IMG/VR virus record: IMGVR_UViG_3300010389_000072
Location: 1 to 32,393 of that record
DNA: 32,393 nucleotides
Strand: one strand, 5' to 3'
DNA from: a virus
The notes beneath the pieces were generated by a model. The model saw only the letters and a list, made by a program, of their open reading frames with translations. It did no database searches and had not been told where the DNA came from. Shown in pieces: positions 12,430-28,659 of this stretch; positions within the stretch are counted from its first letter, which is position 1, and each line of letters begins with the position of its first letter. Position numbers and translations under genes: made by a program.

Positions 12430-12747
12430 ATGGCTACCAGCAAGGCTAAGCCGGCTTCGGATACTCAATTGGATGCTGACGATCTTTGGAACCAGCTTGT
12501 CAGCGAAAATGTCGTTCCCCCGATGAAGATCAAGGGGGTGATCCTGAATCAGCCCACTAAGCAGCAGGTCGATAGGTGGCGGGTTGCCGCTAACGCCGAA
12601 GAGGGCGAGCGGGCGCTGTTCGGGGATCAGTACGATGCGATTCATGCGATTTTCCGCGATGAGCCCGAATATGTTTGGGAGAACTTCAATCTTCTGTATT
12701 TGAAGCACATGTTCGGTGCCGGCGACGACGGCCAGTTGGGAAAATAA
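12430..12747 (+). CDS. Tail assembly chaperone, short frame
   Basis: ATG 12430 with AAGGAG at 12413-12418 gives 105 residues, ending at TAA 12745. This is the upstream frame of the G/GT-type chaperone pair. It is charged and helical (STKQQVDRW-like middle, then YDAIHAIFRDEPEYVW), with a C-terminal MFGAGDDGQLGK. The last two codons before the stop are GGA AAA, part of the slippery heptamer. The short form is usually made in excess and coats the tape measure during tail assembly. ATG 12422 is in another frame and is rejected. Confidence 0.9.
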   Translation: MATSKAKPASDTQLDADDLWNQLVSENVVPPMKIKGVILNQPTKQQVDRWRVAANAEEGERALFGDQYDAIHAIFRDEPEYVWENFNLLYLKHMFGAGDDGQLGK

Positions 12748-13190
12748 TCAAGATCGTCAACAGGTATTGGGACGCTATCTGTTGGGATTGCCAAGAGCGG
12801 CTTGGGTTTTCTGCCTACGAGTATTTTCAGTGGGAGTTGGCTGGTGTCAGGTGGCAGCGTAAGCGGCCTTGGCCTGAACTGCTTGGCTTCTTCGACAGGC
12901 TGATGAACATTCAGGGCACCGCCGTCAATGAGGCTGTGTTGCTTGATCCTGAGACTGTCGAGTGGATGGCCGATCAGCCGCCTGAGCGTGGCACGCACCG
13001 TCCTCCGATCTTCGGGCACACCAAAGAGGTGAACCTGATGATGATGCAGATCGAAGTGGCGACGGGTAAGCCGATGAAGAGGCCGCTGATTCCTGGCTTG
13101 GAGTTGCGGACTGATCGGACAATCGTGAAGACACAGAATGCTGTTGCTGCGGCGCAGAAGCGTAATCGCGAGAAGCGGAAATCTAGCTAG
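12430..13190 (+). CDS. Tail assembly chaperone, frameshift fusion product
   Basis: Predicted as join 12430-12744 and 12744-13190, with ribosomes slipping back one base on GGGAAAA. The fusion has 253 residues. After slippage the frame continues IIKIVNRYWDAICWDC, a typical second-frame start with aromatic and Cys residues, through a helical middle (WPELLGFFDRLMNIQG) to a very basic end (QKRNREKRKSS). The second frame has no good independent start: its ATG 12675 lies inside the first frame without a ribosome binding site. The fusion usually binds tape measure and tube subunits and is absent from the finished virion. Confidence 0.88.
12738..12744 (+). other. Programmed -1 ribosomal frameshift site GGGAAAA
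   Basis: The heptamer fits X XXY YYZ in the upstream reading frame (TTG GGA AAA TAA), and the stop codon follows at once. Slipping back by one base enters the second chaperone frame exactly. The site position, just before the tape measure gene, matches the conserved tail chaperone frameshift of siphoviruses. Confidence 0.92.
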
Positions 13191-13199
13191 GGGGTTGGT

Positions 13200-16100
13200 G
13201 TGGCGCTTGCTGGCGAAGCCGCTGTACGGATAGTCCCTTCGCTTAAAGGTTTCCACGGTGAGGCTGCGCGGAAACTTGCGGCGAAGAAGATTGACTTCGA
13301 TGTCAATGTCGGGGCTAACACCTCTAGGTTTCATCGGGAGATGGAGCAGGCGCGACTCGCGCAGGAAGCCCGCCCGATCACTCTTCGCACTAGGACTGAC
13401 TGGGCTGGGCTTCAGCGTGATTTGTCTGAAGTGCGCCACATCTTTGAGCGCAATAATCTGGTCAAGGGCATTCGCCTTAATATCAAAATCTTGGGCTTGG
13501 ATGCCCTGCCGGCGTTGGCGTATGCGGCTGGCAGCGCGGCGTCTGGCTTGGACGCTTTGGCGAAGTCGGCTTTTGTTGTGCCGGGTGCGCTTTCCGGTGT
13601 TGGCGCTGCCGCCGCTTCTCTTGCTATCGGTCTGTCGGGTGTCGGGGATGCGTTCAAGGATTACGGTAAGGCTGCCGAAGATTCCAGTAAGAATCTGAAG
13701 GATGTTCGGGACGCGCAAAGGGATTTGGCGCGGGCTCAGCGGGATGTTAGTGGGGCGATCAGGGATCAGCGCCGCGAGCTGGAGGATCTGAACGCTGAGC
13801 TTCGCCGCAGCACGCTGGACGAGGCTGATGCGATCCTGAATTTGCAGGAGTCTGCGGATCGTCTGCGCCAGGGCGGTTTCAGGACGATCACCGAATATCA
13901 GCGCGCCCAGCTCCGGTTCTTGCGTGATGTCGAGTCTTTGAAGGATGTCCGCAAGAGCAACATCAGGCTGTTGGAGGACACTAACGAGGCGAACGAGAAG
14001 GGCATCCTTCAGGGCGATCAGGTTGTCGCCGCTTTGGATAAGGTGACTTCTGCGGTTGATCGTTTGAATGAGGCGCAGAAAGAGGCGTCTTCGGCCGGCG
14101 GCGCTTTGGGCAACATCTCCCCTAATGCGAAGGCTTTCATTGAGCAAGCCTACGCGATGAAGGGCGCTTGGGATGATTTGCGGTTGGCTGTTCAGGACAA
14201 TCTTTTTGACGGTTTAGATCGGTCGCTGGCTGACCTTGGCACTAAGGTTCTTCCCGGTTTGAAGGTGGGCCTGTCGCAGGTTGCGGGCGGGTTGAATTCG
14301 ACGTTCAAGTCGGCTGCTGATTCTGTGGCTTCGGATCGCAATGGCGGTCTGTGGGCGAGCATTTTCGGTAACACGACGACCGGGCTGGAGACTTTTAAGC
14401 GCGGCCTTGATCCGGTGATCACCGGGCTGTCTCAGATGGCCGAGGTGGGTTCACGCTTTTTGCCCAGGCTGGGTGCGGCTTTTACTAATGTTGGCCGGGA
14501 CTTTGAAGACTTTACTGCGAGGATCTCTGCTGATGGGACTCTTGAGCGGTGGATCGATCAGGGGCTTGATTCTCTTACTTCGCTGGGCAATGTGGCGAAG
14601 AATCTTGGTTCTGTCATCTCCAGTGTTGGTGAGGCTTTCAATGCCGCGTCGGGCACTGAGGGCGGCTTCATCGGCTATTTCGACCGCGAGTTGCGGGAGC
14701 TTGCTGAGTATTTGCGCGGCGAGGGTCGCGTTGTTCTGACTGACTATTTCCATCGTGCGCGGGATCTGATCCACACGGTGATGGATGCGTTCAGCGATAT
14801 GCGTCCGCTGATCAATAGCATCATTGAGGCGGCGCGGCAGTTCTCTCAGATCATGCTGCCGGCTCTTGGTCTTGTTTTGAGATTCGGTCAGGCGATTGAG
14901 GAGCACACTGGCCTGATCACCAAGATGTTCTTCGTGTATGCGGGTTGGCGCACTATCGCCCCGATGATCGACGCGACGAAGAATGCCTGGAAAAACTATG
15001 TGAAGATTGTTGATTCAGTCTCACGGTTCGGGCCGACGCAGAACAGGTATTTCCAAGGCGTCACTGGCGGCTTGCAGAGCGTTAAGACTGGCTTCAATAA
15101 TCTGAAGGCTCCTGTTTACGGGGCTACTAGTCAGCTCAAAGCATTCACTGGCACGCTGAACCCGGCGGCGGCGGGTGTGGCGAAGATGCTTGGCCCGATG
15201 CAGAGCGCGGCGGGCAAGTTTGACATCCTGTCTAACCGGGCGCAGTACGCCACCCGCAAGGCGGATGCCTTCAAGGGCATGATTGGCGGCGTTATCAACG
15301 TGCTAGGCCCGGCCCTTCTTGGTATCGCTATCAGCGCCGGCATTCAGGGCTTGATGTCTTTGGGTGACGCCCACAAGGCTGCCGAAGATGCGGCTCGCCG
15401 TCAAGCTGATGCGTTGGGCCAGTTGAAAGATGCGCTGGATGAGATCACTGGCGCTGCGACAGCCGCCTCGCTGGAAACCGCCGCCAGGGTGGCACAAGAC
15501 TTCGACATGGGGCCGGTGGTCGGCAAGCGGAACGTGCTTGACGATGTTGTCCGCTCCGGTCTTGCCTCGCCGGATCAGCTTATCTCTGCGACGTTGCCGC
15601 AGAATCAGCAGCTTGCTGACGAGATCGACCGCAAGGCTATCGCGCAGGCAGCGGACAAGATCAAGTCTTCCGATGTGTGGGATAGGTACGGGGAACGCTG
15701 GTCTGAAAACGGCGTGACACCGGAGATCCTCGCCAGGGCAGCCAAGGGCGAACCTGAGGCGTTGAAGGCTGTCGAGGATGTTGAGCGCCTGTTGTTCGGC
15801 AAGCCTCGCCGCGAGTTCAATTTGTTTGACCGCGCCCGCTTCCCCAATGCGGATGCGACGATGCCGTCCGTTGCGGATCTGATTGTTCAGGCTGGCATTT
15901 TCGATGAGGCTTCGGTCGGCCTGTTCCTGGGGCGGGCTAGGGAGCAGAATGTTCTTGGCGGGCAGGCGGCGCAGCAGCGCACGCAGGCTGTGGGCGGTAC
16001 TGCGAACCTAACACCGGCCGGCCAGCAGGAGTTCGGCAAGTTCGGCGCGACGAACGCTGAGACTTACCTGACCGCTGACGGCATCGGTTCGATTGTGGTG

Positions 16101-19100
16101 CCGAATGATCCTGGCGAGATCGACCCTGCTGTCGGGCAGGTTGTTCGGCAGAACGATAGCCAGTGGCAGATCAACCTGACCCCTGATGCGACTGAGAAGT
16201 ATATTCAGGGTTTCGCGCGGGGTGGTTTGATCGGCGGGGTTGGTACTGGGACTTCGGATTCCAATCTGTTGATGGCTTCGCGCGGGGAGTTCGTCACCCG
16301 CAAGGATGCGGTCGATTACTATGGCGCGGATTTTTTTGCCCGTTTGAATGGCATGCAGTTGCCGAAGTTCAACCTTGGTGGTTGGATTCAGTCGCCGCCT
16401 AAGCTGCCTAATTACGACGACATTATTGCGCCGCCCGACGTTAACGTCTTGGATTCGATGGCGACGAATGTGATGTCGGGCATTAATCCGCCTGCCGCGC
16501 CGCCCCTTTCTCCTGCTGCTCCCCCGCCGCCGGTTTGGCCTAATGAGGTTCCGAAGCCGCCAGCGCCGCCTGCCGCGCCGCCGAAGCCTGCCGCGCCGCC
16601 GAAGCCTGCCGCGCCGCCGATTGATAATGCGGTTCCGAAGCCTGCCGCCCCGCCGAAGCCCGCCGCGCCCAGCACTCCCGCTGCGCCTTCGACTCCTAAG
16701 CCGACTTCGCTGACGCCGACCGGGCTGGCCCAGGTGAAGCCCGGCCCGCTGTCTGGTGCCGCCCTTGAGCGGGCTCAGGCTGTCGCGCGATCTACGGGCA
16801 TGTCGCTGGGGGATGTGATGCAGCGCATGCCTTCTTTGATCACCCCGTATACGGGTTTGCCCGCTAACGCCGACATCAAGTACGGCCAAGAGGGTTTCCC
16901 GTCGTGGGTGTACAAGATTGCCGACAGGTTCGGTGTTCAGGCGTCAACTTATGCCGGGCATCAAGTCAATTCTGAGGGATTCAATAAGGGGATCGACTGG
17001 TCTGGCCCGGTCGAGAATATGCGGGCTTTTGCCGCCTATTTGACTTCTTCCGGTATGCCCGGTTTGGAGCAGGTCATCTTTATGGATGCCCGTGATGGGG
17101 CGAAGTTCGGTGTCGATCCTGGTGATCGCGGGCCGAATCAAACCATCGAAGACTACTACGACCAGTGGTGGGCTACACACACCGATCACGTCCACACCCG
17201 CATGAGCGCGGCGCTGCTCACACCAGAAGAGCTGGCCGTGCTTACCGGCGGAATGTCCACGGGCTCTCTGCTTCCCGGCATCCTCTCATCGTCTGGGCTG
17301 CCTTCATTCAGGGGAACTGGTAGCTACTACGGTGGTGGCGGGCAGCCGCGCAAGAATGGGCTTGAGGCGCTCACCGATTACCTGACCAACATGGAGTGGT
17401 TGCAGCCCGAAAACGTCGAGAAGTTCCTGACCGGGCAGGCCCGCAATGTTGGTTCCTCACTGCTCAACATCGGCACCGGGTTCTTGGCCGGCGTCACCGG
17501 GCTGGACTTCTCCGATCTGATCGGAGCTGGGCAGCAGGTCGGCAACTTCTACCTTGGCGCTGGCCGGGGCGGCAGTGGTGGCGGAATGGACGGCGGATAC
17601 ACCGACCTGAACGCCATGACCGATGAGGAGATCAACCGCTACCTCAACGGCCAGGGTGGGCTTGGTGTGACTGGCGGTCTTGACGGGCTGCTGGGTGCCG
17701 ACATCTCTTCGCTTCTTGGTTCTGGCGGGATGAGCGATCTGCTCGACACTACGGGTGTCACTTCGTCGTGGAATCCTGGCGGCGGTGCGGAGCAGTGGCG
17801 TCCGGTGGTGCGCCGCGTGCTGGAAACGTATGGGCCGCAGTACGGGATTACGAACATGAAGGCGTGGGAAGACGCCATCGTCAAGCAGATCCAAAGCGAG
17901 TCCAATGGCGACCCTACTGCGGACAATCCGAATGACAGCAACGGCCAGGGCGGCAAGCAGCACGTTTCCGGCCTGTTGCAGTTCCTGCCGGAAACCTTTG
18001 CCGCGAACAACATTACAGGCGGCGAGTACCTTGATCCCGTAGCGCAGATCGCCGCTGTCATACCTTATGTGATGAACAAATACGGGGTGGACGCTAACGG
18101 TGCGCCGAAGCAGATCGGTCGCGGCGTCGGCTACGCCAGGGGCGGCAAGATCAAGGGGATGGGCGGGCCTCGCGCAGACGCCAATCTGGTTCGGGTTTCA
18201 CGGGGCGAGTTCCTGCACTCCGCTAAAGCTGTGGACTATTACGGCGCTGACCTGATGGGTCGGCTGAATGCGATGCAGATCCCGAGGGAGTCTTTGCCGG
18301 GCTTCAATGCGGGGATGTGGTGGAATCCGTTTGCGCCTGCCCCGGCTGCTGCTCCCGCGCCGGCACTAGCTCCTGCCCCGCCGGCCCCGCCACCTCCGCA
18401 GCCTGCGCCACCTCCAGCGCCTGTTGCTCCTCCTCCCGCGCCGATTAGCGGCGGTGAGGCTCAGTCGGCCGGCCCGATGCCGATGGCACCGGCTCCTGCG
18501 GCTGCGCCAGAGATTGCGCCTGCCGCTCCCTCGACCGGAGGTGCGCCGGGGCCGGGGGCGACTGCTCCCGCTCCCGACCCCGGTGCCCTCCCCGCCGTCG
18601 CTGACGCCCTTTCCGGCATCGGCGGCGGTCTGGCCCAGCCCGGCGCGGGCAGCCCCGGCGAGGCGTCCTCCGATCCGCGCGGCACCTTGGGCGCTGCCCC
18701 GGTGTCCCAGGATCACACCAATCCCGCTTTGGCTGCTGGCATTAAGGGCGGTTTCGACGCTTTGGGTGCTTTGGCTGCTTCCGCGATCAATGCGGGCGCT
18801 GCGGCCGGCACGTTTGGTGCGTCTGCGGCTGCCGGTGGCATGGGGGCCGGGCAGGCCGGCCAGCTCGCCCAGGCTGGGGCGCAGATCGCCGGGGATGTCG
18901 CGGTCGGCGCTGTGAACGTGTTGTCAAGCCTACTGGTGGGCACCGCGACGAACGGGTCAACACCGTCAGCGTCGGGGGTTCCGCTGCTGCCGCAGCGCCA
19001 GCCCGTGCAGACGGGTGTGCGCCCGATGCAGCGGATTCACAACGGCGACATCAACGTAACCAACTTGGATGAGTTCAAGCGGACGCAGGAGCGGATGGAC

Positions 19101-19136
19101 GCCCAGGCGCAGATGCCGTTTATCGGGAAGTACTGA
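13200..19136 (+). CDS. Tape measure protein with M15-like and lytic transglycosylase-like domains
   Basis: GTG 13200 after AGGGGG; 1978 residues, the longest gene here. The N-terminal part has a charged coiled coil (about 155-235) and hydrophobic stretches near 115-150 and 693-722 that could enter membranes. A Pro/Ala linker (about 1097-1177) leads to a peptidase M15/ARB_07466-like domain with His1254, Asp1266 and H1327-TDH-V-H1332. Residues 1530-1640 resemble a soluble lytic transglycosylase, with Glu1567 in QSESNGDP and GLLQ at 1591-1594. A second Pro/Ala linker follows (about 1712-1793). The protein sets tail length, is threaded through the tube, and the enzymes would help DNA pass the wall. 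Two copies of an SRGEF/AVDYYGAD module flank these domains. Confidence 0.93.
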   Translation: MALAGEAAVRIVPSLKGFHGEAARKLAAKKIDFDVNVGANTSRFHREMEQARLAQEARPITLRTRTDWAGLQRDLSEVRHIFERNNLVKGIRLNIKILGLDALPALAYAAGSAASGLDALAKSAFVVPGALSGVGAAAASLAIGLSGVGDAFKDYGKAAEDSSKNLKDVRDAQRDLARAQRDVSGAIRDQRRELEDLNAELRRSTLDEADAILNLQESADRLRQGGFRTITEYQRAQLRFLRDVESLKDVRKSNIRLLEDTNEANEKGILQGDQVVAALDKVTSAVDRLNEAQKEASSAGGALGNISPNAKAFIEQAYAMKGAWDDLRLAVQDNLFDGLDRSLADLGTKVLPGLKVGLSQVAGGLNSTFKSAADSVASDRNGGLWASIFGNTTTGLETFKRGLDPVITGLSQMAEVGSRFLPRLGAAFTNVGRDFEDFTARISADGTLERWIDQGLDSLTSLGNVAKNLGSVISSVGEAFNAASGTEGGFIGYFDRELRELAEYLRGEGRVVLTDYFHRARDLIHTVMDAFSDMRPLINSIIEAARQFSQIMLPALGLVLRFGQAIEEHTGLITKMFFVYAGWRTIAPMIDATKNAWKNYVKIVDSVSRFGPTQNRYFQGVTGGLQSVKTGFNNLKAPVYGATSQLKAFTGTLNPAAAGVAKMLGPMQSAAGKFDILSNRAQYATRKADAFKGMIGGVINVLGPALLGIAISAGIQGLMSLGDAHKAAEDAARRQADALGQLKDALDEITGAATAASLETAARVAQDFDMGPVVGKRNVLDDVVRSGLASPDQLISATLPQNQQLADEIDRKAIAQAADKIKSSDVWDRYGERWSENGVTPEILARAAKGEPEALKAVEDVERLLFGKPRREFNLFDRARFPNADATMPSVADLIVQAGIFDEASVGLFLGRAREQNVLGGQAAQQRTQAVGGTANLTPAGQQEFGKFGATNAETYLTADGIGSIVVPNDPGEIDPAVGQVVRQNDSQWQINLTPDATEKYIQGFARGGLIGGVGTGTSDSNLLMASRGEFVTRKDAVDYYGADFFARLNGMQLPKFNLGGWIQSPPKLPNYDDIIAPPDVNVLDSMATNVMSGINPPAAPPLSPAAPPPPVWPNEVPKPPAPPAAPPKPAAPPKPAAPPIDNAVPKPAAPPKPAAPSTPAAPSTPKPTSLTPTGLAQVKPGPLSGAALERAQAVARSTGMSLGDVMQRMPSLITPYTGLPANADIKYGQEGFPSWVYKIADRFGVQASTYAGHQVNSEGFNKGIDWSGPVENMRAFAAYLTSSGMPGLEQVIFMDARDGAKFGVDPGDRGPNQTIEDYYDQWWATHTDHVHTRMSAALLTPEELAVLTGGMSTGSLLPGILSSSGLPSFRGTGSYYGGGGQPRKNGLEALTDYLTNMEWLQPENVEKFLTGQARNVGSSLLNIGTGFLAGVTGLDFSDLIGAGQQVGNFYLGAGRGGSGGGMDGGYTDLNAMTDEEINRYLNGQGGLGVTGGLDGLLGADISSLLGSGGMSDLLDTTGVTSSWNPGGGAEQWRPVVRRVLETYGPQYGITNMKAWEDAIVKQIQSESNGDPTADNPNDSNGQGGKQHVSGLLQFLPETFAANNITGGEYLDPVAQIAAVIPYVMNKYGVDANGAPKQIGRGVGYARGGKIKGMGGPRADANLVRVSRGEFLHSAKAVDYYGADLMGRLNAMQIPRESLPGFNAGMWWNPFAPAPAAAPAPALAPAPPAPPPPQPAPPPAPVAPPPAPISGGEAQSAGPMPMAPAPAAAPEIAPAAPSTGGAPGPGATAPAPDPGALPAVADALSGIGGGLAQPGAGSPGEASSDPRGTLGAAPVSQDHTNPALAAGIKGGFDALGALAASAINAGAAAGTFGASAAAGGMGAGQAGQLAQAGAQIAGDVAVGAVNVLSSLLVGTATNGSTPSASGVPLLPQRQPVQTGVRPMQRIHNGDINVTNLDEFKRTQERMDAQAQMPFIGKY
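16210..16395 (+). repeat. Tape measure internal module, copy 1
   Basis: Encodes ARGGLIGG, MASRGEFVTRKDAVDYYGAD and ARLNGMQLP in order. The same order recurs in copy 2 at 18133-18320 with clear protein similarity but diverged DNA. The module lies just before the first Pro/Ala linker and the M15-like domain. Confidence 0.8.
16490..16730 (+). repeat. Pro/Ala-rich low-complexity repeat
   Basis: Short units of the type PAAPPKP are repeated many times, encoded by near-identical gcc-gcg-ccg triplets. The stretch separates the helical tape measure from its M15-like domain and is likely a flexible or extended linker. Such DNA is prone to length change by slippage. Confidence 0.85.
18133..18320 (+). 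repeat. Tape measure internal module, copy 2
   Basis: Encodes ARGGKIKG, VSRGEFLHSAKAVDYYGAD and GRLNAMQIP, matching copy 1 at 16210-16395 in order and spacing. It follows the transglycosylase-like domain, so the two copies bracket both enzymatic domains. Confidence 0.8.
18335..18580 (+). repeat. Second Pro/Ala-rich low-complexity stretch
   Basis: Runs of PAP, PAPPP and AAP units follow the second SRGEF module. The remaining C-terminus is Gly/Ala-rich with a helical, hydrophobic stretch (about residues 1840-1910). Function as a linker is inferred. Confidence 0.8.
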
Positions 19137-19138
19137 TT

Positions 19139-20050
19139 ATGGATCTCTACAACTCTCGCGCCAAAATTGAGATTTTTGGAATAAACGATGAGTACTTTTG
19201 CATATCCGGCGAGGGTGCCGGCGAGCAGGGTGTCATCTTGCAGCCGAAGCTGAAGGGCGCTATCGACGCCCCGGTCAAGTCGCTCTGGATGCCGGGATCT
19301 TTCGGGCAGACCTTCGTTGATTTCCGTTGGGAACGCAGGGAAGTCATCTTCACCGTGACCGTGTTCGATGACGGCGGCGATCCCGAAGCCTGGCACTCTA
19401 TCGACTCCAAGTGGCGGTTCGCTTGGGATTACGTCAAGGAAACCACCATTCGTTTCACCACCTCTGATGGCTACCGGGATTTGAAGGTTCGCCTGATTGA
19501 GGAGCCGGAAGCCTATGACGCCGGGGATTGGGAGGGTAAAGACCCGCACCTTTACGCGACCTCGACGGTGGTGATGACAACTGGCGCGGAGCTGCCGTTC
19601 TATGTCGGCCCGTCCGACTTCTACGAGTGGGAGGGCGAAACCGCCAAGGGGAAGACATCGTTCAAACTGAACGTGGATTGCGATGTTCCGGTTTGGCCGA
19701 AGTGGACGCTGTCGGATCAGGCGCGCTGGCGGCTGCCCGATTTTTCGTTCGGCAACGAGGAGTACGGGCGCGGGGTGATGGACATGGGTAGGACGGTGGA
19801 GTTGCCGTTCCTGCCGAAAGGTGCAGGCGTGGTCGCAGACTCCGACCCCCGCAATCAGACCCTTCTGGCCGCGAACCGCATTAATGTGCAGGGCTTGTGG
19901 AAGGGCAAGGATCTGTTGTATCCGATTGCGGGCGGCACTTATTCGTCGCTGCCTGTGTCGGTGAAGGATGCGGTCGAGGGGTATGCGTGCCGGCTTGAGG
20001 TGCCGAAGTGGTATACCCGCCCGTGGTCGCGGCCGGTGGGGGTTGTCTGA
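19139..20050 (+). CDS. Minor tail protein, distal tail (Dit-like)
   Basis: ATG 19139, two bases after the tape measure stop and with GGGAAG upstream; 303 residues. It is the first gene after the tape measure, the normal slot for the distal tail protein that forms the hexameric hub. The sequence is beta-rich with many aromatics (VDFRWERREVIFTVTVFDD, TIRFTTSDGYRDLKVRL) and a second half with HLYATSTVVMTTGAELPFY, fitting the two-part organisation of siphovirus tail-hub proteins. The last base of its TGA is the first base of the next gene's ATG. Confidence 0.82.
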   Translation: MDLYNSRAKIEIFGINDEYFCISGEGAGEQGVILQPKLKGAIDAPVKSLWMPGSFGQTFVDFRWERREVIFTVTVFDDGGDPEAWHSIDSKWRFAWDYVKETTIRFTTSDGYRDLKVRLIEEPEAYDAGDWEGKDPHLYATSTVVMTTGAELPFYVGPSDFYEWEGETAKGKTSFKLNVDCDVPVWPKWTLSDQARWRLPDFSFGNEEYGRGVMDMGRTVELPFLPKGAGVVADSDPRNQTLLAANRINVQGLWKGKDLLYPIAGGTYSSLPVSVKDAVEGYACRLEVPKWYTRPWSRPVGVV

Positions 20051-21777
20051 TGGCTATCAGCACTGTTAACGCGCAGAAGCTGTCCGATATTGAGGGGCAG
20101 GTTGATGGGTGGCGCGACCAGTTGGGGTATCTGCGCCGCTCCAAGCCGATGATCACCTTCTATCGCAACCGCGAGGACGGCTCGCCCGGCCTGGAGTACT
20201 ACGGTCGGGTGGATTACCGCGACACGATCAGGGCAAGTTTCCCCTTTAAAAAGAATGTTTCGGCGCAGGGCGTCCTAGAGTTGCGGTTCGATCACTACAT
20301 TTCGGAGTGGCTTCGCAGCGTGCCGAATGATCCGGCGCATAAAAAGAACATTGTCATCAGGGTTGATTGGTTCGGCGGGAAGTTGCGCTGGACTGGGCTG
20401 TTGCATCATCACGCGGTGAAGATGCGTGACGGCATGCGCTATATGGAATTCACGTTCAATGATGATTTGCAGTTTTTGCAGTTCATGCTTGGCCCGCCGA
20501 ATCCCGCGTTGCCGATTCCGGTGTTTCAGTTTCCCCGCGTGCTGCCAATTTTTGGGCCTGCCAAATGGGCTTGTTCCATTATGATTTTGCTCCAGCTCAT
20601 CCGCTTGAACGGGAATTTGTATCAGCTCCCCGACGACCCTTTCGATCTGGGTCAGTGGGATGATCTGATCAACTGGAATGATTGGCAAGTCCACATCAAA
20701 TGCAACCCTCTTCCTTTGGATGACTCGTCGCTGTGGACTGTGCTTGGCACAAGAATGAACCCGATAGACGCCGTTTTATCGGATGCGCTTGAGGATAGCC
20801 AACTTACGGTGAAATGGCGGCGGGTATTCACCGATGAGGGCGAGCAGGAACACGGCTTATTGCTGGCACCCAATCCCGCGAATGGTGCGCTCATTCTGGA
20901 GATTGTTGACGATTCCGGCTACTATTCGCCGCTGAAGGGCACATTCCTGGGCGGCACGATCATTGACGGTATGGCCCGGTCGGCGGTCGAATACATCGGC
21001 GGGTTCATTGAGGATACCGGGGCGCTGCTCACCGACGATGAAACGATCTACCCCGACGAGTATTACGGGCCGGGGTTTCTTGGCACCAAGGCTGAAGCGC
21101 CGTGGCTAGTGATCAGGGACAACGCCTGGACGCCGATGGAGACATCGGAGCTGACGTGGTCACCGGCAACCGCTATCAGGGTGATCGTGGGTGGCGACAA
21201 CCCTGCCGCTGACGCCATTGTCAGGCTGATTATCGAAACCACAGGGAATTTGATCGGCTATTTCCTTTTAGCCGGCTTCTCTAGTGCTGGCTCTATAGCG
21301 GCGGATGCAATTATGCCTTTCGTCGTGGGCACGATAGCGGCTTGGCTTGAGTGGAAACATTTGGAGCGGGCGAGGAACCTTGGCTGGGTTCATTTGTGGG
21401 AGTTGTATCAGCAGGGCGCGGAAAACAATTCTTGGTCTTTGAGTGCGATTGCGGCCTTGCGGGGCGGGTTCTTGGCGTCGAGGTCGGAGACTTCGCACAC
21501 GGTGTCTTTGCGCGGCAATTCTTGGATCATTCCCGGCGTGCATTTCGACATCGGTTCTCGCGTTGGTTCCACGTCGCGCGGGTATCCTGACATTATTTTC
21601 GTCGCGCAAACTGAAGAGATCATTGCGTCGTGGGACAACGCGAACGGTGATCCTGTTAATTTCCAGGTGAAAGTCGGCCAGAATAAGGCTTCGATGACCA
21701 CTGGTGAGCGGGCGGCTAGGTTGCTGAAGAAGACGCGAGATATTTTGAATAACATCGGCGTCCATATGATCAGCTAA
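20050..21777 (+). CDS. Minor tail protein, Gp37-like (tail-tip hub)
   Basis: ATG 20050 is used; the in-frame ATG 20008 lies inside the previous gene. The product has 575 residues. The order after the distal tail protein, the aromatic beta-rich N-terminus (KPMITFYRNREDG, then GVLELRFDHYISEWL) and the segment MRYMEFTFNDDLQFLQFML resemble the ReqiPepy6 Gp37-like family of actinophage tip proteins. A long hydrophobic helix (about 390-434, containing GYFLLAGFSSAGSIAADAI) is unusual for a soluble structural protein and could insert in a membrane on injection. The C-terminus is a beta domain ending with GVHMIS. Likely anchors the central fibre proteins that follow. Confidence 0.8.
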   Translation: MAISTVNAQKLSDIEGQVDGWRDQLGYLRRSKPMITFYRNREDGSPGLEYYGRVDYRDTIRASFPFKKNVSAQGVLELRFDHYISEWLRSVPNDPAHKKNIVIRVDWFGGKLRWTGLLHHHAVKMRDGMRYMEFTFNDDLQFLQFMLGPPNPALPIPVFQFPRVLPIFGPAKWACSIMILLQLIRLNGNLYQLPDDPFDLGQWDDLINWNDWQVHIKCNPLPLDDSSLWTVLGTRMNPIDAVLSDALEDSQLTVKWRRVFTDEGEQEHGLLLAPNPANGALILEIVDDSGYYSPLKGTFLGGTIIDGMARSAVEYIGGFIEDTGALLTDDETIYPDEYYGPGFLGTKAEAPWLVIRDNAWTPMETSELTWSPATAIRVIVGGDNPAADAIVRLIIETTGNLIGYFLLAGFSSAGSIAADAIMPFVVGTIAAWLEWKHLERARNLGWVHLWELYQQGAENNSWSLSAIAALRGGFLASRSETSHTVSLRGNSWIIPGVHFDIGSRVGSTSRGYPDIIFVAQTEEIIASWDNANGDPVNFQVKVGQNKASMTTGERAARLLKKTRDILNNIGVHMIS

Positions 21778-21836: not shown

Positions 21837-22022
21837 GTGCTTGATTCTTACGATATGCGGGCGTTGAATGCCGCCATTTCTGGGTTGAAGGTCAGCTTGC
21901 ATCATTTGCAGCGCCTGGAGCGCAATGGGGTGGTTGAGGCCGGCCCTGTGGCCGCTCTGGGTGGGGTGGTCGCTGAAGTCGAGGGTGTGCGCGAGGCGAT
22001 CAGGACACCTTCGGAGCAGTGA
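21837..22022 (+). CDS. Small helical protein, 61 aa
   Basis: GTG 21837 with AGGAG about ten bases upstream. The 61-residue product is one or two helices (MRALNAAISGLKVSLHHLQRLE, then VAALGGVVAEVEGVREAI) with alternating hydrophobic residues, suited to coiled-coil or bundle formation. Small genes at this place in tail operons are common but uncharacterised. It overlaps the next gene by four bases (GTGA). Function unknown; probably a tail accessory protein. Confidence 0.7.
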   Translation: MLDSYDMRALNAAISGLKVSLHHLQRLERNGVVEAGPVAALGGVVAEVEGVREAIRTPSEQ

Positions 22023-22471
22023 CCGCTGTTCACCCGCCTGACCCTGACGATCCGAGGGGTATGGCGTTTATTTTGGGTGCCGGCGCGGTAGATCCCCGCG
22101 CGGGTAAGACGTGGGCTGATCGTCAGCCGATGGCGCTTGTTCAGTCGTGGGAGCCCACGTCGGAGTTGTGGTGGGCGCTGGGGTTGCGTTGGCATCCAGA
22201 GTTGGCGACGAAGTGGCTTGTCGGCGGCGGTCAGTTCGGTGTCGGACAGGTTGTCGATGAACCTCCACCCCCGCCGAAGCCGATTGAGGCGGAAGCGGAG
22301 GAGCTTCTGGAGTTCATCGGCAAGGACAATCCTGAGTTCGCTGACATGTTGCGCCGTATCCGCGAGGCGGGCACACCTGAGCAGAGGCAGGCTCTGCTGC
22401 GCGAGTTTGAAGGCAACATCACATCGTTGCAAAAGATGGCTAACTACATTCAAGGGGGTGCTGACAGTTGA
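22019..22471 (+). CDS. Hypothetical tail-operon protein, 150 aa
   Basis: GTG 22019 overlaps the previous stop by four bases; 150 residues. The N-terminal half contains conserved-looking aromatic motifs (AFILGAG, SWEPTSELWWALGLRWHPE). A PPPPPK linker follows and the C-terminal half is a charged helix (EEFADMLRR-type, with NITSLQKMANYIQGG). I do not recognise the family. Its position between the hub protein and the giant repeat protein suggests a minor tail component or assembly factor. It is coupled to the next gene by TTGA. Confidence 0.72.
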   Translation: MTAVHPPDPDDPRGMAFILGAGAVDPRAGKTWADRQPMALVQSWEPTSELWWALGLRWHPELATKWLVGGGQFGVGQVVDEPPPPPKPIEAEAEELLEFIGKDNPEFADMLRRIREAGTPEQRQALLREFEGNITSLQKMANYIQGGADS

Positions 22472-25400
22472 CCGTCCCGATCAATCCTGATGGCACAGTC
22501 CCTTCCGACCCTGAAGGCAATGGCACTGTAACCCCGCCAGATCCCGAGGTCTTCGATGATCAGGGCGTGATTTATGGGGCGGCGTTCTCCGCGCTCAACA
22601 GTCGCACTCAGGAGAATGTCACCGCCAGCTTGCAGGCCCAGTTGTCGGCAAACCCGATCTGGGACGGGTTGTTTGATGCGTTCTGGGAGCTGCTTCGGAT
22701 ACCGGCCGATTTCCTGCTTTCCGTTCTGGAGAAGCTGTTCCCAGGCATCGACTGGGAAGCGTTGCGGGAGTTCAATCTTTTTGACACGATTGAGGATCTG
22801 GTCACTGGCGCTGTCGATGCGCTTAAAGAGGTTCCGTTCCTATCTGATGTGATCTTCTGGATCACCGGGCTTGTTGAGGGTACGCGGGAGACTGTCGAGC
22901 TGTGGTTCGGCAACCTGCGGGACTTCCTGTCGCACATCAATCTTTTCAGCGAAGACTTCAATCTGATTGAGGCCGCTGAGAGTTTTGTCGAGTTCGTCCT
23001 GTTCCCGGTTTGGCGTGTGCTGCCGTGGGATTTTGTTCGCGATTTCTTGGGCCGGCTGTTTCCCGGCGTTGATTGGTCGTGGATCACTTCTGAAGAGTTC
23101 GACATCTCCGACATCGGCCAGGGGATTATCGATGCGGTCAGTCAGATCCCGTTCATTGGGGATCTGTTGTCGTGGCTGACTGGGGCTACGTCTGGCACGT
23201 TGGAGACTTTGCGTCAGTGGTTCGATAATCTTCGCCAATTCTTGGCGAGCATCAACTTCTTCGGGCCTGACTTCGATCTGTTGGCGGCTGCTGAAGACTT
23301 CATCCAGCTCATTCTCGCACCTGTCAATGCGTTTCTCTCGTTCGACTGGTTTTTCGATTTTCTGGAAACGATCTTCCCCGGCTTGGACTGGGATGCGTTG
23401 CGCGAGTTGGATGCTGCTAGCTTCCTGTCGAGTGTCTTGGCGGCGCTGCAAGAGGTTCCGTTTGTCGGCAAGATCGTCACTGGCATTCTGGGTTTGGGTA
23501 GTGGGACGTGGGAGCAGCTCACGATCTGGTTTGATAACTTCTGGGACTTTCTGGGGAATATCAATTTCCTGAGCCCCGATTTCAATCTGCTAGAAGCTGC
23601 TGAGAACTTCCTTGAGTTCATCATCTTCCCGGTGTGGCGGCTCGTCCCGTGGGAGTGGATCGTTGACGTACTCCAAACCCTGTTCCCCGGCTTGGATTGG
23701 ACGTGGCTGGAGACTCTCGACATCAGCGAGTGGGCTGAGCAGATCCTTTCGATCATTGGTCGGGTGCCCTTCGTCGGTGACATTCTTTTTTGGTTGACTG
23801 GGGCTACTGCTGGAACTTTTGAGACTTTGAAGCAGTGGTTCGATAATCTGCGAGAGTTCCTGGGTTACATCAACTTTTTCGGCCCAGACTTCGATCTCCT
23901 TGCCGCTGCTGAAGCGTTCATCGATTTCATTCTTTTTCCGGTGGGCAAGCTCGCGGAGTTGGGTGTCGGCCTGCTGGACTGGCTGCGGGACAGGCTAGTC
24001 AAGCCGGTACTCAGCGCCTTAATGGGTGAGGGAGTTAACCTTGACTTGACCGCGCTTGGAGTGTGGGCGAAGAACCTTCTCAGCGGCGAAGGCCCGATAC
24101 CGGCGCAGAATCTGCAAGGCCAGGTTTCATCGTCGCTGTTCGGCGTCATCCCGGTAGCGCACATCTCCAACACAAGTCCCAACTTGTTGTCGCAGGGCAA
24201 CTTCGATTCCGCCGACATGGTCGAGGCTAATGATGTCGGCTGGGAGTGGACTGACGAGGAGAGTCAGACTGGTACGGGCGGCTCTCTGAAGCTGAATCTG
24301 GATAACACTGTTCAGATCATCTACTGCAATCAGTCGATCCCGGTAGGGCCGGGCGATAAGGTTGCGCTTCAGGGCTGGTTGAAGACAGTCGATTATTCGG
24401 GCGTCGGTGAACCGTTCTTGCTGGATTTGATTCCGTTCGCCGGGCAGGCGCAGTTGGCTGCGGAGGGCGTCGCGGAGTCTGGGCCTTCCCCTGTCGGGGA
24501 TTGGAAGCAGTTCTACGGCAGCGTCTATCAGGTTCCGGCCGGCGTCGATTCGGTTCGGGTGCGTATAGTTGTCGCCGCCGGGGCGTATTCTGGCACCGCA
24601 TACTTTGATGACATCCGCGTAGCGAAAACGGGTTTCTTGCAGCAGGGGCTTGTCGAGCGCCTGACCGATGCTTGGAACAACTTCTGGAACGGCGTTTTCG
24701 GGACTGCCGGCGATGACACAGAGCGGTCTGTGGATGACTTGTTCACTGCTGCGGATACGATTCGGGTCGATAACGCTAACACGGCAGTAATCGCCGCCAA
24801 CGTGTTCAGCGGCCTTGGGGATCTGCTGTGGGGCTTGATCAACGCCCCGTTCAACTTCATCGGTTCGATTGTCGGCGTGGTCATAGACGGTGTGAGTACC
24901 TTCGGCGACTGGCTGCGTAACCTTTGGGAGAAGCTGACAGGCACTAGCGCGGGCGGTGCAAACAAGCTAGCTTCTGATGTAGCCGAAGCGGCAGACAGTG
25001 TTCGCTTCAATGCCAGTAACGCTGTAGTGGAGGCCGGTTCGGCCTCACTGCTCGCTGGGCTGGCCCAAGATGACGCCGACGAAGCTCTGATATTGGCCGG
25101 CCTAGCGCAGCAAGACGCCGACGACGCCAACCTGATAGCTGAAGCCTTCGCGGAATCGGGCTCAAGCCTCATCTCTAACTACAGCTTTGAGCGGACAGAG
25201 TTCTACTTCAACACCGGCACCGGGGCTTCGATCACAACGGAGCAGGCCCGCACCGGGGTCAGGTCTGTGCGGATCGCATCGAACAACGCCTACCCCTATG
25301 CGTATGTGTCGAACAATCTGAGCAGCCTGTTCTACATCCCTGGCGACACTGGGGAAACTTTTGAGTTTGTGTGTTGGGTTCGCGGGCACACGTCGAACAC

Positions 25401-27156
25401 GAAAACCAAGGTCAACGGCATCTGTCTGAGGCTGAACTGCTTCACTTCTGCCGGTAACAGCACGGGCACCTCGTTCGCGTTCTTCGATGCTTCCCCGGCG
25501 CTGAACAACACTTGGACGAGGCTTTCTGCGAAGATCACTATCGACCGGGCCAACACGGCGAAATTCCTTCCTGCGGTTCAGCTTTATGCTCTGGCTGCTG
25601 GAGATATCTACTATTTCGATGATTTCGTTTTGCGTGAAGTTTCGGTGGCAGCCGAAGCGGCCGGCACTGCTAGCGAGGCCAGGGATGCCACCAAGGCGTC
25701 GAACCTGATCATCTTCGGTAACGAGGAGCCGCCGCCAGGCTCAACGATTGCTGAGAGTGCCGTCCCTACGCTTCCGCAGGACAAGGTTCAAGACCTGAGT
25801 TCCACGCTATCTACGGTCAGCCAGCAGGCTAGTGACGCCGAGTTGGCTGCCGGTGGCGCTCAAACGGTTGCTGAAGGCGCGCAGGGCAACGTCGAGGACA
25901 CTTGGGACACCTACACCGAAAAGATACTTGGCGATTCCCCCGATGGCGGTGCCACGGTTGACGATTTCGGCGCGGCTGCCGGCGCGACCACGACCACGTT
26001 CGGGGATCACGATGGACGCATCTCCGGTCTGGAGGCTGTAGCTAGCGGCACAGCTTCGTCGGGACGCAGCGCCACGGTCAATTTCAGTGCCTACCCCAAT
26101 GGGGCGGTGCCTAACCCGCCGTGGACGCGCACCCGGTTCAGCGGATCGGACAGAACCGCCGTCAGTGGCGGCGAGGTGGTCTGGACAGCCAACCTGGCCG
26201 GTGATATTGCACTGATCTGCAACCAGGCCGAGATGGCGACTGACAACCAGCTCGTCACTCTCAGCACCTACTTGGGGCCGAAGAACTCTGTATATCGGGT
26301 TTACGGCAGGTCTAATCTGACTGCATCTACCGCTGTTTACGCTCTCATTACCGTTGCCCAGAGCCAGCCCATCAGTTTTACGACGAGGAATATCACTGTC
26401 GAGTTGTGGGCTAAGACGAATGGGTCGGCAACGCGGATGGCGGGGCCGTTAACTCAAACTATTTCGCTTTCCAGCCAGATGAGCATCGGGTTGAGGTGCG
26501 GTGAAACGATTAATGGTGTTGACTACCCGCGCCGCTACTACATTTATGTGAACGGCACCCAGGTTCTGTATCACTCCGATAGTACCAGTAGCACGATAGG
26601 GCACAGGTATGCCGGTTTTGGCATGACCAGCATTTTTTATAACGGCAGCTACATCTATCCGAATGCTGTGTCTGGTTGGTCGGTGGCTGATACCAAGGCT
26701 GTCGATTACGTTGGCTGCGGCATCAGGCTTAGCTGCTCAAGTCAGGCCACGCTAGCTGCGGCTACGTCAACTCATAGGCTGGTCGGCAACATTTGGAATC
26801 AGACTGAAATCCCAGCTAACGACGGGCTGATTGTTCCGTATGGCACCACCGGAGAGGTTCAGGTTACTGAAGCTGGCTGGTACGCCGTTAGCGGCTCTTT
26901 AGGGCTATCGGGATCTATCAATTGGCCTACGGCTCAAATTCAGCTTGGCGTATTCAAGAACGGCGCTGCACAAAATTGGGGGCAGACCGCGCCTTTCACT
27001 CACGCAGCGATCAACGGTGTCATTTACTGCGCCAAGAACGATAGGATTGGCATAGGATACAAAGGGCAGAACTATACCCCGACAGTTCTTGGTAACCCAA
27101 ATGTGAGCAATTTCTCTGTGGCATTCCTGAACAACACAAAACCCGTAACAGCGTGA
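22468..27156 (+). CDS. Giant minor tail protein: four tandem repeats plus several binding-type domains
   Basis: TTG 22468 overlaps the previous stop; 1562 residues. Residues 69-483 are four tandem units of about 105 residues with a partial fifth, each with an FPG-DW motif (Phe91, 198, 303, 406), a W/F-rich helix and an NFF/NLF-F-DFNLLEAAE-type end. Next are two CBM/galactose-binding-like jelly rolls (about 568-722 and 898-1061), both ending in a YFDD motif. A concanavalin-like region with AVSGWSVAD near its end spans about 1201-1408. A C1q/TNF-like C-terminal domain (about 1421-1562) includes EVQVTEAGWYAVSGSL. Such domain sets bind surface polymers, so it is probably the central fibre or receptor-binding protein. 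Helical Ala/Asp-rich stretches link the domains. Confidence 0.85.
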   Translation: MTVPINPDGTVPSDPEGNGTVTPPDPEVFDDQGVIYGAAFSALNSRTQENVTASLQAQLSANPIWDGLFDAFWELLRIPADFLLSVLEKLFPGIDWEALREFNLFDTIEDLVTGAVDALKEVPFLSDVIFWITGLVEGTRETVELWFGNLRDFLSHINLFSEDFNLIEAAESFVEFVLFPVWRVLPWDFVRDFLGRLFPGVDWSWITSEEFDISDIGQGIIDAVSQIPFIGDLLSWLTGATSGTLETLRQWFDNLRQFLASINFFGPDFDLLAAAEDFIQLILAPVNAFLSFDWFFDFLETIFPGLDWDALRELDAASFLSSVLAALQEVPFVGKIVTGILGLGSGTWEQLTIWFDNFWDFLGNINFLSPDFNLLEAAENFLEFIIFPVWRLVPWEWIVDVLQTLFPGLDWTWLETLDISEWAEQILSIIGRVPFVGDILFWLTGATAGTFETLKQWFDNLREFLGYINFFGPDFDLLAAAEAFIDFILFPVGKLAELGVGLLDWLRDRLVKPVLSALMGEGVNLDLTALGVWAKNLLSGEGPIPAQNLQGQVSSSLFGVIPVAHISNTSPNLLSQGNFDSADMVEANDVGWEWTDEESQTGTGGSLKLNLDNTVQIIYCNQSIPVGPGDKVALQGWLKTVDYSGVGEPFLLDLIPFAGQAQLAAEGVAESGPSPVGDWKQFYGSVYQVPAGVDSVRVRIVVAAGAYSGTAYFDDIRVAKTGFLQQGLVERLTDAWNNFWNGVFGTAGDDTERSVDDLFTAADTIRVDNANTAVIAANVFSGLGDLLWGLINAPFNFIGSIVGVVIDGVSTFGDWLRNLWEKLTGTSAGGANKLASDVAEAADSVRFNASNAVVEAGSASLLAGLAQDDADEALILAGLAQQDADDANLIAEAFAESGSSLISNYSFERTEFYFNTGTGASITTEQARTGVRSVRIASNNAYPYAYVSNNLSSLFYIPGDTGETFEFVCWVRGHTSNTKTKVNGICLRLNCFTSAGNSTGTSFAFFDASPALNNTWTRLSAKITIDRANTAKFLPAVQLYALAAGDIYYFDDFVLREVSVAAEAAGTASEARDATKASNLIIFGNEEPPPGSTIAESAVPTLPQDKVQDLSSTLSTVSQQASDAELAAGGAQTVAEGAQGNVEDTWDTYTEKILGDSPDGGATVDDFGAAAGATTTTFGDHDGRISGLEAVASGTASSGRSATVNFSAYPNGAVPNPPWTRTRFSGSDRTAVSGGEVVWTANLAGDIALICNQAEMATDNQLVTLSTYLGPKNSVYRVYGRSNLTASTAVYALITVAQSQPISFTTRNITVELWAKTNGSATRMAGPLTQTISLSSQMSIGLRCGETINGVDYPRRYYIYVNGTQVLYHSDSTSSTIGHRYAGFGMTSIFYNGSYIYPNAVSGWSVADTKAVDYVGCGIRLSCSSQATLAAATSTHRLVGNIWNQTEIPANDGLIVPYGTTGEVQVTEAGWYAVSGSLGLSGSINWPTAQIQLGVFKNGAAQNWGQTAPFTHAAINGVIYCAKNDRIGIGYKGQNYTPTVLGNPNVSNFSVAFLNNTKPVTA
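22672..23998 (+). repeat. Four and a partial fifth tandem repeats, about 105 codons each
   Basis: Units begin at 22672, 22984, 23299 and 23608, with a truncated fifth at 23917. Each encodes FPVW-like, FPGxDW, VPFxxD, LTGATxGTxETLxxWFDNLR and INFFGPDFDLLAAAE-type elements. Units 2 and 4 are most alike, suggesting duplication of a pair. The protein pattern is clearer than the DNA pattern, so the duplication is old. Confidence 0.9.
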
Positions 27157-27654: not shown

Positions 27655-28659
27655 GTGAAGGTCAGGTTTCTTTACGCGCACGGCACCGCGTACCTCATCA
27701 ACATCCTTGAGCTTGGGTTCGCCATAGAATTGGGTGGCCGGGTTGTTATTAACGGCCAATACGATTCCCCTGATGGTCTTGGCACCGCCACCGTGGCCGG
27801 CCTGAATGGTAGGACGGCGTTGTGGGATGGTTCGCCGCAGGACGATCCGTTCCCGGCGCTGCTAGACCCGAATAGGTTTGAGGTTACTAGCATCCGCTAC
27901 CCGGCTTCTGCCTACCCGATGAGTACGTCTATCGACATCGGGGTGGGCATGATGATCGACCAGATCAATGCCATGCCACCCGACCAGCCGTGGGCTGTGG
28001 GCGGGTACAGCCAGGGCGGTGCGGTGGCGGCACAGATCTACGATGAGGTTCGTTACGGTAGCTTGACCTCAAGGGCTGCAACGTTTTTGGGGGGTGTTTG
28101 TTTCGGATCGCCCAGAAGGCAGCGCGACCATAGGGGTGCTGTTGGTGGAACGTGGTCTGGCGCTTGGGATGTTGAGGGTTCGACCACGGGTGGTGCCGGC
28201 TGCTTTCCCGATACTGGCCCGCTAGCGCGGCTCACTAATTGCGAGGACAAGTGGGTGGAGTTCACCGCACCGGGAGATGTTGTCGCCGCCACTGGTGAGT
28301 CAAGTTTCGGCAATCTATGGGTTGAGACTGCGAACGCTCTTCTCAACCTTGGTTCGGGTGGGATCATCAACTTCCTCTCCAATTTGGGAGAGGGTATCGC
28401 TGACGCTGTAGAGGCTGCTGTCGGGTTCGCGGGCCAGGTTAATAGTTTCATTGATGCGGCCGGCCAGCCTTTTCAGCAGAGCGGCAGTGGGCACACTTCT
28501 TATGCTTGGGTTCCGCCGGAGGGTTTGACAGGCAAGACTAGTTATCAGATCGCCCTTGAGTATCTGGAATCCCTTGCCGACGATTATGCGGTTGCGCCGA
28601 TTGCGTTGCCGCCCAGTAGCGCCGGGTGGTCTACCCGGCTTTTACCGCCACCAAGTTAA
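27655..28659 (+). CDS. Cutinase-like serine esterase (lysin B-like)
   Basis: GTG 27655 directly follows the previous stop; 334 residues. The lipase box GGYSQGGA places Ser119 as nucleophile, with Asp208 (APGD) and His280 (GSGHTSY) at the expected spacing of an alpha/beta-hydrolase triad. The fold and size resemble lysin B of mycobacteriophages, which cleaves the ester between mycolates and arabinogalactan. No secretion signal is seen. Its place among tail genes, away from any endolysin gene in view, leaves two options: a lysis enzyme, or a tail enzyme opening the mycolate layer on entry. The C-terminal 40 residues are a Pro/Ser-rich tail. Confidence 0.85.
   Translation: MKVRFLYAHGTAYLINILELGFAIELGGRVVINGQYDSPDGLGTATVAGLNGRTALWDGSPQDDPFPALLDPNRFEVTSIRYPASAYPMSTSIDIGVGMMIDQINAMPPDQPWAVGGYSQGGAVAAQIYDEVRYGSLTSRAATFLGGVCFGSPRRQRDHRGAVGGTWSGAWDVEGSTTGGAGCFPDTGPLARLTNCEDKWVEFTAPGDVVAATGESSFGNLWVETANALLNLGSGGIINFLSNLGEGIADAVEAAVGFAGQVNSFIDAAGQPFQQSGSGHTSYAWVPPEGLTGKTSYQIALEYLESLADDYAVAPIALPPSSAGWSTRLLPPPS

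Follow-up and report, generated by a model that had tools for sequence, protein, structure and literature searches.

A virus sequence of 32,393 nucleotides (IMG/VR record IMGVR_UViG_3300010389_000072, positions 1 to 32,393; hereafter the window) encodes a central fibre protein (CFP) with four tandem copies of a W/F-rich unit placed directly after its hub-binding head. We put the probability at roughly 65% that these units are an all-helical neck module of a trimeric fibre and that copying to four has lengthened the neck. A helical neck of the central fibre is a known kind of object; the presence of four full-length copies is new.

The repeat had been assigned at the outset to a giant tail protein, which can be named more precisely as the CFP. 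The surrounding tail module contains the following genes:

13200 to 19136, + strand: tape measure protein (TMP), 1978 aa; from its size and position directly upstream of the distal tail protein gene as in Douge, with a weak SLT match
19139 to 20050, + strand: distal tail protein (DTP); phrog_106 E=5e-79; 77-79% identical to cluster M and M. abscessus prophage proteins, 49% to Douge
20008 to 21777, + strand: baseplate hub protein (BHP, Sipho_Gp37); PF14594 E=1.4e-41; 76% identical to Nanosmite, 58% to Douge gp18
22019 to 22471, + strand: 150-aa minor tail protein, counterpart of Douge gp19; phrog_4413 E=2e-45; 53% to Nanosmite, 25% to Douge gp19
22468 to 27156, + strand: CFP, 1562 aa; from phmmer to 8zdo_v, PHROG 746/346/3493 minor tail protein and gene order

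The order TMP-DTP-BHP-small protein-CFP matches gp16-17-18-19-20 of Douge. This gene order, the sequence match to the Douge gp20 structure (8zdo) and an N-terminal head together identify the repeat-bearing protein as the CFP, predicted to hang beneath the baseplate hub and to carry sugar-binding-type domains; the BHP is the expected anchor of the fibre. The CFP gene begins with a TTG codon that shares bases with the stop codon of the 150-aa gene before it (TTGA). Immediately ahead of the tape measure gene, two ORFs (12430-12747 and 12675-13190) overlap with a frame offset of -1 between them, an arrangement typical of tail assembly chaperones produced through programmed frameshifting. Downstream of the CFP gene, positions 27655-28659 encode a cutinase/PE-PPE-like esterase matching phrog_102, a probable LysB (mycolylarabinogalactan esterase), which is in keeping with a mycolate host; the hosts of the relatives are mycobacteria.

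Outside the repeat, the CFP contains the following regions:

22468 to 22650, + strand: N-terminal hub-binding head, residues 1-61; head profile match and alignment
24148 to 24648, + strand: first CBM-like domain, residues 561-727, counterpart of the Douge CFP NTD; phmmer, Foldseek and alignment
25165 to 25563, + strand: second CBM_4_9-like domain, residues 900-1032; PF02018 E=0.0096 and NF033675 E=1e-5, both below cut-off
26059 to 26697, + strand: DUF7257 domain, residues 1198-1410; Pfam PF23918 E=1.4e-11, above cut-off

In the phmmer comparison, residues 513-840 of the query aligned to residues 109-447 of the Douge gp20 chain (8zdo_v, E=3e-20). The heads of cluster M, the M. abscessus prophage and the window matched the Douge and LeBron heads with an hhalign probability of 93.8 (E 1.8e-7). 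The first CBM-like domain was modelled with block pLDDT of about 80-93 over most of its length, and a Foldseek search with a 347-residue model of unit 4 plus this domain returned 8zdq_v as the top match (336 alignment columns, E=6e-11), although the superposition on Douge was poor across the helical part (rmsd 32.9); the matches following the Douge CFP (8zdq/8zdp) included CBM16-type modules. A Douge-type tip and CTD were not found in the window CFP, where the match stops at residue 840 and gives way to DUF7257 and other domains. We did not take likeness in the tip and CTD as defining a CFP, given that the distal parts vary among the relatives too. Between the two CBM-like domains, at positions 24805-25017 (about residues 780-850), lies a second W/F-rich, hydrophobic and helical-looking stretch, with a unit HMM trace of -0.5 bits at residues 797-824.

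The array itself consists of four units with pairwise identities of 39-62%, followed by a fragment of a fifth:

22651 to 22968, + strand: unit 1, residues 62-167 (106 residues); HMM 129.5 bits
22969 to 23283, + strand: unit 2, residues 168-272 (105 residues); HMM 164.9 bits
23284 to 23592, + strand: unit 3, residues 273-375 (103 residues); HMM 155.0 bits
23593 to 23901, + strand: unit 4, residues 376-478 (103 residues); HMM 169.5 bits
23902 to 24147, + strand: partial fifth first helix (residues 479-498) and helical linker to the first CBM-like domain; partial HMM match of 4.8 bits, helices in the model

An HMM built from the four units matches the protein at exactly four complete copies, with unit 1 starting at residue 62 or 70, and a BLOSUM62 self-comparison of the protein peaks at offsets 103, 311, 208 and 206. 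The value of 0.54 at offset 103 compares with a maximum of 0.06 among 100 shuffles, which rules out chance periodicity. The original prediction of a four-fold tandem repeat thus stands, while its boundaries, given as 22672-23998, move slightly to the left, to 22651-23901. The sequence elements it had listed as conserved fared unevenly. FPGxDW (residues 91, 198, 303 and 406; spacing 107, 105 and 103) and WF[DG]N (residues 146, 251, 354 and 457) occur in all four units; VPF is found in units 1, 3 and 4 (residues 122, 330 and 433) and is replaced by IPF in unit 2; and only units 2 and 4 have LTGATxGTxETL in full, the element being degenerate in units 1 and 3. The high density of four residues is borne out by comparison of the units (5.6% W, 12.1% F, 15.3% L and 8.5% D) with the remaining protein (2.0, 3.9, 7.6 and 5.6%, respectively).

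With DNA identities of merely 50-65% among the copies, the array cannot be an artefact of misassembly. Across the copies, 23 columns are invariant, and conservation is much stronger at second codon positions (67-83%) than at third positions (34-48%), which indicates that the copies are old and that every one of them has been under purifying selection.

In the phylogenetic tree, the four units of the window are monophyletic (100/98) and sister to the unit of the M. abscessus prophage (97/95). This monophyly shows that the four copies arose within the lineage of the window phage, by tandem multiplication of a single unit. Units 2 and 4 had been singled out as most alike, and they are the closest pair (62% aa, 65% nt) and group together (96/98); the proposed pairwise duplication is not supported by units 1 and 3, which are 41% identical and do not group, but the AU test does not reject an alternating (AB)(AB) pair duplication (p 0.34). 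The hub is 76% and the DTP 77-79% identical to those of Nanosmite, PegLeg and prophiT49-2, all with one-unit fibres, and the hub is 589 residues long vs. 576-578 in the one-unit phages. The first CBM begins as late as residue 561, whereas its start in the other CFPs examined lies at 110-295. The attachment partner has therefore changed little, although each chain has gained about 310 residues of spacer.

To place the unit among other phages, we searched with an HMM built from the window units only. It detected one significant unit each in the CFPs of Gaia, LittleE, Nanosmite, SG4, PegLeg and Sparky (E 1e-20 to 1e-8); in prophiT49-2, a full unit was accompanied by a weak trace of 7.7 bits. No recognizable unit was found with the unit HMM in Milly, Paola, Jolie2, Daredevil, Douge and Bxb1. 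The single unit sits upstream of the CBM in the one-unit CFPs examined, except in prophiT49-2, which is without that domain, and in Nanosmite, SG4, LittleE and Gaia, homologous sequence occupies the same place in the order head-unit-CBM. A tblastn search with the CFP N-terminal region matched 352 phage records, all of mycobacterium phages; the single record covering 80% of the query is Nanosmite, which carries one unit. Copy-number variation among relatives, as had been anticipated, is real: the profile search gave one unit in 93 of 94 viral and GTDB-contig loci, the exception (L013) having two units together with additional, weak copies of a repeat of shorter length, and bacterial genomes added three two-copy necks with different periods (G188, G264 and L119). 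Close relatives with four units were not found in IMG/VR, the phage records or 396 genus-level and 401 family-level bacterial genomes.

As the original prediction had it, the repeat belongs to no named domain: Pfam and NCBIfam gave no match above curated cut-offs within residues 62-478, and no PDB relative of the unit was significant by sequence or profile. We read the weak PDB matches to designed coiled coils and cytochrome b as matches of composition, and likewise a DUF4112 match that lies on hydrophobic helices and below the curated cut-off. A weak match to the tape-measure family phrog_1535 (E=2e-6; window 22768-23238, CFP residues 101-257) also falls on hydrophobic helices; we read it as compositional, the alternative being a helical element common to both. 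Aligned with the neck of Douge, the unit gave an hhalign probability of 30, a weak match covering just the ITG...DL motif. No description of the neck module was found in the literature, in open-licence texts searched mainly by abstract or term.

Among the named systems, Douge gp20 (PDB 8ZDO/8ZDP/8ZDQ; cluster L4) resembles the window CFP in having a hub-binding head and a CBM-like NTD with a helical region next, and the two phages share the tail gene order and a hub 58% identical. It differs in its neck, about 100 aa long and without a recognizable full unit, in its total length (878 vs. 1562 aa) and in its distal part, where the window has a second CBM-like region and DUF7257. The minor tail proteins of Mclasvirinae phages (Nanosmite, Rey and PegLeg) and of the M. 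abscessus prophage prophiT49-2 have the head and unit type of the window, and their hub and DTP are 76-79% identical, but they carry one unit, not four. SG4 gp18 (Cheoctovirus), LittleE gp39 (Omegavirus) and Gaia gp21 have one unit core (IPxxGDIxExITG...NxRxFFxxINFxxPxF) before the CBM and differ in a divergent N-terminal helix region, the single copy and other distal domains; the distal half of Gaia gp21 matches the Bxb1 gp29 tail spike.

Tandem P-x-x-GD...TG...DL cores like those of the window are also found in the necks of L013, G188, G264 and L119, phages or prophages of Mycobacteriales, but with two clear copies (more, though weak, in L013) and shorter periods, and these expansions are apparently independent. 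The metagenomic fibre protein at L013:5572-8178 combines a Bxb1-like N-terminal head and a neck with several short IPLIGDIVEAITG-type repeats with the CBM type of the window; by this example, head and neck look exchangeable. Kumao gp30 (L115:3702-6269) is a close relative whose CFP has kept mainly the second half of the unit (LGEFLGSINFLSPDFNPQQAAQEF), which suggests that the unit is built of separable parts.

In Claus, the resolved part of the CFP is confined to the first 69 residues, which form four short helices on the hub; beyond them, the chains join in a trimeric helical bundle (PMC13252515). The LeBron head aligns with the head of the window CFP, with matching segments. As LeBron and the head homologues map to the hub-bound segment of Claus, the units of the window should occupy the position of the bundle. 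We propose that the N-terminal head (about residues 1-70) would clamp the trimeric baseplate hub and that the repeat would form the neck directly below it, a module of which relatives carry one. Each unit would consist of short amphipathic α-helices, with breaks at FPGxDW, VPF, TGxxxGT and the INFxxPDF loop. Three chains would probably pack their W/F/L-rich faces together, giving from the four units a trimeric stalk with a hydrophobic core and an acidic surface, and this stalk would hold the first sugar-binding domain, with all beyond it, further from the hub. We infer the trimeric packing, the stalk geometry and the advantage of longer reach. Two single-chain structure models agree on all-α units with an identical helix order in each; their confidence is low (unit blocks about 43-68; mean pLDDT 47.6 for the head and four units), so the proposed unit fold and oligomeric state are tentative. 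Such values are unsurprising, as the chains may need their trimer partners. Plain stalks seldom have so high a W/F content, which counts against our model. Of the three guesses of the original prediction, an amphipathic rod, a membrane-active or mycolate-layer-interacting segment and an extended helical stalk, the last fits best with the position after the head, the all-helical prediction and the unchanged hub.

An alternative reading is that the units are extra hub-wrapping segments, part of a CFP sheath outside the hub as in the published wrap-disassemble model, giving the baseplate more wrapping or bracing and not lengthening the fibre. In Douge, the N-arm (residues 1-164) anchors the fibre to the hub via hydrophobic and π-stacking contacts (PMC13033339), and the part of the Corndog CFP resolved at the hub comprises 103 N-terminal residues (PMC13252515), so that unit 1 could touch the hub. 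We nevertheless consider this unlikely: a hub and DTP 76-79% identical to, and nearly equal in length to, those of one-unit phages provide no added binding surface, and the resolved part of the Claus CFP ends after 69 residues, at the start of the trimeric bundle (PMC13252515).

The units might instead be membrane-active, inserting into or disturbing the mycobacterial outer (mycolate) membrane once the fibre leaves the hub. In tomograms of Douge, the central fibre is seen passing into the outer membrane (PMC13033339). The predicted helices of the unit are W/F/L-rich and amphipathic (hydrophobic moment about 0.3-0.6), and the 19-residue hydropathy of the repeat segment rises to 1.64, borderline for a membrane segment. 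Membrane-active peptides of the cationic type are positively charged, unlike the repeat segment, which is acidic, with 18 K/R and 70 D/E and a net charge of -52 over 445 residues. The predicted helices are furthermore short (about 11-18 residues) and interrupted by P/G/D, and the segment is by position the neck close to the hub and not the fibre tip. The membrane or mycolate-layer guess gained no positive evidence, and we hold a membrane-active role to be quite unlikely. Very improbable, finally, is a neutral expansion without a specific role, in which a recombination duplication was tolerated by a length-elastic neck. CFP necks do vary widely in length and sequence (CBM start 110-295) and some are without the unit, but copies only 39-62% identical have kept their invariant columns and second codon positions.

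In the published model, the CFP detaches from the hub upon genome release, and one may speculate that a longer neck could alter reach or detachment. Tentatively, the central-fibre neck of Mycobacteriales phages may be a spacer tunable by copy number, in which repeated duplication of a W/F-rich module would set the distance of the receptor-binding domains from a constant hub and thus the reach through capsule and mycolate layers. Hubs 76% identical that bear one-unit and four-unit fibres make a natural comparison, and if the copy number of the unit does tune neck length, one could test directly, in phages that infect laboratory mycobacteria, how fibre reach affects adsorption and hub detachment. 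The unnamed helical module is common to about 350 phage records, and a family model for it would improve the annotation of their "minor tail proteins."
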